Below, piece by piece: positions 14,690 to 15,262 of a stretch of 64,000 nucleotides of DNA. Below the pieces are notes generated by a model that was not told the origin of the DNA, did no database searches, and was given only the letters and a program-made list of their open reading frames with translations. How positions within the stretch are numbered: the stretch's first letter is position 1; every line of letters begins with the position of its first letter. The position numbers and the translations under genes are program-made. Location: positions 62,001 to 126,000 of the forward strand of contig JACQEZ010000020.1 in the NCBI GenBank assembly GCA_016200325.1. The letters are read 5' to 3'. The stretch comes from Candidatus Manganitrophaceae bacterium (lineage in GTDB: Bacteria; Nitrospirota; Nitrospiria; SBBL01; Manganitrophaceae).

Positions 14690-14872
14690 TTAGGCGAGGT
14701 CTCGCTCCTTAACCGTCTTCCGTTTATCTGCCTTCGCCCGCTCTATCGCTTCTAAGCAGAGCTTTTCAACACGCTGGCTGAGCGCCTGGAGAAACTCGGC
14801 TGACGTATTAAATTCGGACTTCTCTCGAACCAGCTTTTTGACCTTTGAACTGACCACCAAGATTTCGGACAT
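14690..14872 (-). CDS. Bacterial histone-fold protein (Bd0055-like)
   Basis: 60 residues. A short N-terminal VVSSKVKKLV helix, the NTSAEFLQALSQRVEKLCLEAI central helix and a final KRKTVKERDL stretch match the histone fold. RKTVK..D is the same motif that precedes the last helix in archaeal histones (RKTV at 51-54, Asp58). It resembles the single-fold histone of Bdellovibrio more than the doublet archaeal-type proteins. The last helix is very short. It would bind and coat or bend DNA. AGGAGG lies six bases before the ATG, so the gene is well translated by prediction. It is monocistronic, convergent with the AsmA-family gene. Confidence 0.82.
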   Translation of the reverse strand: MSEILVVSSKVKKLVREKSEFNTSAEFLQALSQRVEKLCLEAIERAKADKRKTVKERDLA

Positions 14873-15262
14873 CCATCTCCTCCTTCAACAGTTAATCGGA
14901 CCAGATCGCATATTCGGATAACAGGTCAGGTATCGGGTTCGTCCCATAAAGATCCTTGTTCAAAAAAATGGTAGCATGAAAGAAGGCGTGATCGCAACCG
15001 GAATTATTCAACCAATACAGAGAGGCCGGTGTTTAAACCACCCTGGATTTCGTCGAATCTTTCATTAAAAATAAGACTCACTTGCGAGGATTATTTGTCG
15101 AATTCAATCGACGCCGCTTCCCTCCGGAGGAGGAAGAGAACGGGTTTTGATCCTCTGGACCAAAGGTTTTATATGAATAAAGAGATGAATTTCATGGCTA
15201 TTTTATCAGACGCACAGAAGAACCTTGCATTTTCACATCTGAAAATGTAATATATCTGCGAT
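14873..15262. other. 390-base divergent intergenic region
   Basis: Lies between the histone (minus) and helicase (plus) genes. It contains the helicase promoter at its right end. An open frame at 15029-15250 has no recognisable protein features or ribosome binding site and overlaps that promoter. No clear -35/-10 pair was found for the histone gene. Confidence 0.5.
15225..15253 (+). promoter_or_regulatory. Promoter of DEAD-box helicase gene, predicted leaderless
   Basis: TTGCAT, 17-base spacer, TAATAT. The -10 ends nine bases before the ATG at 15263, with no Shine-Dalgarno sequence in between. Confidence 0.6.

Follow-up and report, generated by a model that had tools for sequence, protein, structure and literature searches.

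A small histone close to Bdellovibrio HBb in the manganese-oxidising Manganitrophus lineage

Introduction

Does a 60-codon reading frame in a Manganitrophaceae genome encode a genuine histone, and if so, of which kind, and how might it act in a cell that also has HU and IHF? The frame lies in the window, by which we mean the whole 64,000-nucleotide stretch of DNA that was analysed, and an earlier note had read it as a histone gene that could encode a main nucleoid protein. We find that the manganese-oxidising Manganitrophus lineage carries a genuine small histone close to Bdellovibrio HBb. Our preferred reading, to which we assign a probability of roughly 0.7, is that this is an HBb-type alpha3-truncated histone, a DNA-bending dimer and a nucleoid protein beside HU/IHF. 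The interpretation in the earlier note thus stood as to histone identity, motif, ribosome-binding site and short last helix, but not as to the rank of main nucleoid protein. The features of the locus are collected in Table 1.

Table 1. Features at the histone locus, with window positions and supporting evidence.
Feature	Position	Strand	Evidence
Histone gene, 60 aa, alpha3-truncated, HBb-like	14690..14872	-	ORF, phmmer, PF00808, AlphaFold2, Foldseek, VIA-align
Shine-Dalgarno AGGAGG, six bases before ATG	14879..14884	-	sequence; orthologues; window ranking
Candidate sigma-70 promoter, overlaps upstream block	14968..14997	-	by eye
Conserved 38-base upstream block	14971..15008	-	alignment; unique match in window

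Results

A real gene, resident in the genus

In the list of open reading frames, an ATG-started frame fills 14690-14872 exactly on the minus strand, which the earlier note had not specified, and encodes 60 residues (MSEILVVSSKVKKLVREKSEFNTSAEFLQALSQRVEKLCLEAIERAKADKRKTVKERDLA); the plus strand across these positions contains stops. Substitutions between orthologues are concentrated at third codon positions, and dN/dS is 0.015-0.14 in the orthologue pairs listed with measurable dS. On an HMM of Bdellovibrionota histones built without the window protein, that protein scores 89.5 bits, and sequences obtained by shuffling its residues about 5000 times reach at most 12.5 bits. Because of the low dN/dS and the synteny in five Manganitrophus genomes, we conclude that this is a real gene under purifying selection.

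The host genome (4.21 Mb in 20 contigs, 99% complete) carries the histone on a 470-kb contig, in the order uvrB, GAF-GGDEF, AsmA-family gene, histone, DEAD-box helicase, acyltransferase and transglycosylase. The closest loci are in Candidatus Manganitrophus GAC4 (86% identical) and other Manganitrophaceae. This neighbourhood is common to five Manganitrophus genomes, one of them a single-contig assembly, which argues that the histone is resident and not a contaminant. The distribution of histones in bacteria is patchy, and contamination may account for some of the reports (PMC10627809), which raises the prospect that the frame is spurious, foreign to the assembly or a decayed import. We consider that vanishingly improbable: the conserved neighbourhood and the length of the contig speak against contamination, and a dN/dS far below 1 refutes a spurious or decayed frame.

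The histone gene is a unit of its own, with one convergent and one divergent neighbour. Some genomes of the sister family keep the GGDEF neighbour, and no other context is shared beyond the genus; an operon function read from the neighbours was rejected on these grounds. A phage or plasmid origin was also rejected, since no relative was confirmed among viral contigs, a PHROG search with the histone gave no match, and the plasmid matches listed were haloarchaeal histones of the face-to-face type that cover about two thirds of the query with no more than 53% identity.

Signals upstream of the gene

The Shine-Dalgarno sequence stands in the context GAAGGAGGAGATGG-ATG. By the energy of pairing with the 16S tail it comes fourth among the 42 genes called in the window, in agreement with the strong site claimed in the earlier note, and a purine-rich GGAG-type site is retained before the histone in the orthologues read. 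Further upstream, five of the six Manganitrophus genomes carry a single copy of the 38-base block, which in every case lies about 100 bases ahead of the histone ATG; in the sixth, which is 72% complete, neither block nor histone was found. The candidate promoter consists of TTGCGA, 18 bases and then TACCAT preceded by TGC (an extended -10), each hexamer matching the consensus at four of six positions. It fell below the threshold of the promoter scan and went unreported; the scan for intrinsic terminators and promoters gave no result and the Rfam search no match. Judged by inspection only, the block may hold a promoter.

Sequence comparison points to the HBb-type subgroup

The best PDB match in a phmmer search is HBb/Bd0055 (E 2.5e-18), gapless over residues 1-59 with 35 of 59 residues identical, followed by HTkC (E 6.9e-6) and HLp (E 5.7e-5). 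An HBb-type HMM gives the protein 89.5 bits and a face-to-face HMM, made from only 8 mostly haloarchaeal sequences, 69.4 bits, both models being built without the window protein. The HBb-type grouping reflects this top match and this higher HMM score; a tree built from 59 short sequences has poor resolution and does not settle where the Nitrospiria clade stands relative to the face-to-face histones. PF00808 is passed narrowly (22.7 bits against a cut-off of 21.4), and the NCBIfam model for archaeal histones gives a match that stays under its cut-off. A six-frame PF00808 search of the whole genome (G000) missed the histone, though the protein alone passes, and surveys that use PF00808 may therefore undercount such histones.

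The predicted structure agrees. An AlphaFold2 monomer model from 38 sequences has a pLDDT of 86.8 and helices at residues 8-19, 25-48 and 56-58; it replaced a first model from 20 close sequences (pLDDT 75, helix 1 starting at residue 2) once Bdellovibrionota sequences had been added to the alignment. The monomer prediction thus has the three helices expected of a histone. Foldseek gives a TM-score to HBb of 0.90-0.94, normalised by model length. In structural overlays, HBb ranks first (Z 9.3-9.4; three of the four listed entries superpose over 57-59 residues at 0.8-0.9 A rmsd, 9EZZ chain B at 1.4 A), ahead of HLp (Z 8.2-8.3, 1.2 A), HTkC (Z 8.1, 1.1 A) and HMfA/B (Z 6.1-6.4, 1.8 A; HMfB at 6.1); Z-scores of this size can be unspecific in small helical proteins, and here the sequence comparison agrees with them. 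The best matches by both routes are histones and not an unrelated helical family, bearing out the reading as a stand-alone bacterial histone.

Alpha3-truncated histones are defined as having a histone fold with a helix 3 of just 3-4 residues and a helix 2 that is 4-5 residues shorter than that of nucleosomal histones (PMC11390915). In the window protein, helix 3 has 3-4 residues (56-58 in the final model, 56-59 in the first), and helix 2 (25-48) is shortened: four residues have to be inserted there when its profile is aligned to HmvA (8bdk), an archaeal histone. The last helix is therefore as short as the earlier note claimed, but this is no peculiarity of the protein, being a defining trait of all alpha3-truncated histones (PMC11390915). 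We conclude that the protein is an alpha3-truncated histone, most likely of the HBb-type subgroup.

HBb's DNA contacts are conserved

The residues through which HBb contacts DNA are T8, S9, K10, K12, K16, N22, S24, K52, T53 and R57 (PMC11317129). The window protein has S8, S9, K10, K12, R16, N22, S24, K52, T53 and R57 at these positions, so that eight of ten are identical and two are conservative replacements (T8S, K16R). None of S9, K10, S24, K52, T53 and R57 varies across 24 Nitrospiria sequences, and K12 and N22 hardly do. The R51-D58 clamp and D49 are conserved relative to HBb, as are V11, L31 and L38 of the handshake core, with I35 replaced by V and I59 by L. The RKTV...D motif named in the earlier note is present (R51, K52, T53 and D58) and, together with basic K10, K12 and R16 on helix 1, completes the HBb-type signature of an RKTxxxD motif and a basic first helix.

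Because contacts, clamp and core are all conserved, a dimer that grips the DNA backbone and bends DNA is the most likely form of action. By homology, two chains would pair through their central helices in a histone handshake, and the dimer would hold the backbone without sequence preference, using the first turns of helix 1 (S8, S9, K10, K12 and R16) and the paired L1-L2 loops (N22, S24, K52, T53 and R57), with loop 2 probably braced by the R51-D58 clamp and D49. Such a dimer would bend DNA as in HBb, and in the cell may serve as an extra nucleoid-associated protein next to HU/IHF. Dimer state, DNA binding, bending and abundance are all inferred here; for HBb, bending, non-specific binding and importance have been described (PMC11317129, PMC10627809). 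The DNA mode of HBb is itself disputed, straight sheathed DNA or a straight filament (PMC10627809) standing against bending (PMC11317129).

Dimer or tetramer

In face-to-face histones, the dimer-dimer interface uses a conserved Arg and Asn located where helix 2 ends (HLp residues R49 and N53; PMC12701072). In the window protein this pair is incomplete: R45 occupies the R49 position, and D49 stands in place of the Asn. Position 45 is R or K in 22 of 24 Nitrospiria sequences, whereas almost every Bdellovibrionota sequence read has Ser there; the Asn position is mostly Asp across the Nitrospiria clade, as in HBb. The tail beyond D58 comprises 2-4 residues in Nitrospiria (two in the window protein) and one in haloarchaeal proteins, while the Bdellovibrionota histones that were read have six, of the IVIDHL type. 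A dimer-only assembly is uncertain because R/K45 and the missing IVIDHL-type tail resemble face-to-face tetramers.

In such an arrangement, as in Leptospira HLp, dimers would associate through helix 3 and the end of helix 2, giving a torus-shaped tetramer with about 60 bp of DNA wrapped on it. R45, which matches the tetramer arginine of HLp and HTkC, is consistent with this, as is a chain that stops two residues past D58, face-to-face histones likewise ending soon after that Asp. So are the scores on the small face-to-face HMM, 49-69 bits for Nitrospiria and 41-58 for Bdellovibrionota, and the presence of both R45 and N49 in a relative of the same order. We nevertheless regard a tetramer as unlikely for the window protein, which has D49 as HBb does, has R57 where HLp has T61, scores 20 bits lower on the face-to-face HMM than on the HBb-type HMM, and finds HBb first in both sequence and structure rankings. 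The HBb-like dimer is the reading that we carry forward.

The relative in question (L004, 5001-5180), from Nitrospirota, combines R45 and N49 with an otherwise HBb-like sequence. In a Lindowbacteria genome (G503), one histone is HBb-like and another carries the face-to-face R/N signature (L077 and L079). A more speculative proposal, and a doubtful one at present, is that the Nitrospiria histones form a distinct branch between HBb-type dimers and face-to-face tetramers, some of which (likeliest those with R45 and N49, such as L004) tetramerise and wrap DNA, enabled by the R/K45 face at the end of helix 2 and by the missing HBb tail. If true, a switch from dimer to tetramer could be traced within one bacterial order.

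Distribution and coexistence with HU/IHF

Across the phylum sample, 17 of 396 genomes match, all in the same class, and no histone was found in the genomes sampled elsewhere in the phylum. The class has the histone in 26 of 270 genomes and the order in 14 of 18; the genomes listed for a large family (f5), which we take to be Nitrospiraceae, have none. In Bdellovibrionota, taken through the genome of L010, the count is 170 of 192.

One Manganitrophaceae genome has a second copy of the histone (L006:747-926, G400:C307) in which codon 33 is an in-frame TAG, reflecting either a decaying paralogue or a sequencing error. In another genome of the order (G291; L030/L068), a second histone has a Cys/His-rich N-terminal stretch before the fold and resembles the described ZZ histones, the whole protein lacking a Pfam match. 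Two Bdellovibrionota genomes (G642 and G645; L116:272-667, plus strand, and L117:280-669, minus strand) contain frames of 129-131 aa in which two complete HBb-type folds follow one another, both having RKTVM..D and the SK motif of helix 1; these single-chain doublets keep the DNA-binding residues, unlike the DUF1931 doublets as described in PMC12701072.

The host genome has four HU/IHF-family genes, answering the check for HU or IHF that the earlier note had proposed, and all 40 relatives tested have 2-9 copies, with or without a histone. We therefore rejected the histone as an HU/IHF replacement and conclude that it adds to HU. Its suggested rank as a main nucleoid protein is neither supported nor excluded. 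The constant presence of HU/IHF, the four of 18 genomes of the order in which no histone was found, and the in-frame stop in one genome's second copy would fit a narrow or conditional DNA-binding role, as a low-abundance regulator or stress protein and not a chromosome-wide organiser. Against this stand the strong, conserved ribosome-binding site, strong purifying selection and the retained non-specific backbone contacts, and in Bdellovibrio the presence of HU does not keep HBb from being the most abundant nucleoid protein (PMC10627809); we judge a narrow role improbable, and retain the general nucleoid protein beside HU/IHF.

Discussion

HBb-type histones now extend to Nitrospirota, a phylum unnamed in the main texts of the bacterial-histone papers: those of PMC11390915, PMC11317129, PMC10627809 and PMC12701072 contain no word beginning with Nitrospir, and their supplements may list it. 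Literature searches combining bacterial histones with Nitrospirota found no paper. Within one class, such histones are retained across several families alongside HU/IHF, and at the dimer-dimer surface the clade combines HBb-like positions with face-to-face-like ones, its natural variants there offering a short list for comparing dimer bending with tetramer wrapping.

Among known systems, the closest is HBb/Bd0055 of Bdellovibrio bacteriovorus (PDB 8FVX, 8CMP, 9EZZ, 9F0E), at 59% identity without gaps. The two share the three-helix fold, truncated helix 3, DNA contacts, R51-D58 clamp, D49 and handshake core; they differ in R45 for S45 and in a window chain that ends at residue 60 without the IVIDHL-type tail, and the window protein is more basic than the Bdellovibrionota sequences computed. 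With HLp of Leptospira perolatii (9QT0) and HTkC of Thermococcus kodakarensis (9F2C) it shares the truncated helix 3, the loop-2 R-x-T, a basic residue at the tetramer-arginine position and a short C-terminus, but it has Asp for the tetramer Asn, about 33-42% identity in structural alignments and a lower structural score. The archaeal nucleosomal histones HMfA and HMfB have the same fold and RKT...D motif, whereas helix 2 of the window protein is about four residues shorter than theirs and its helix 3 has three residues in place of about ten (PMC11390915).
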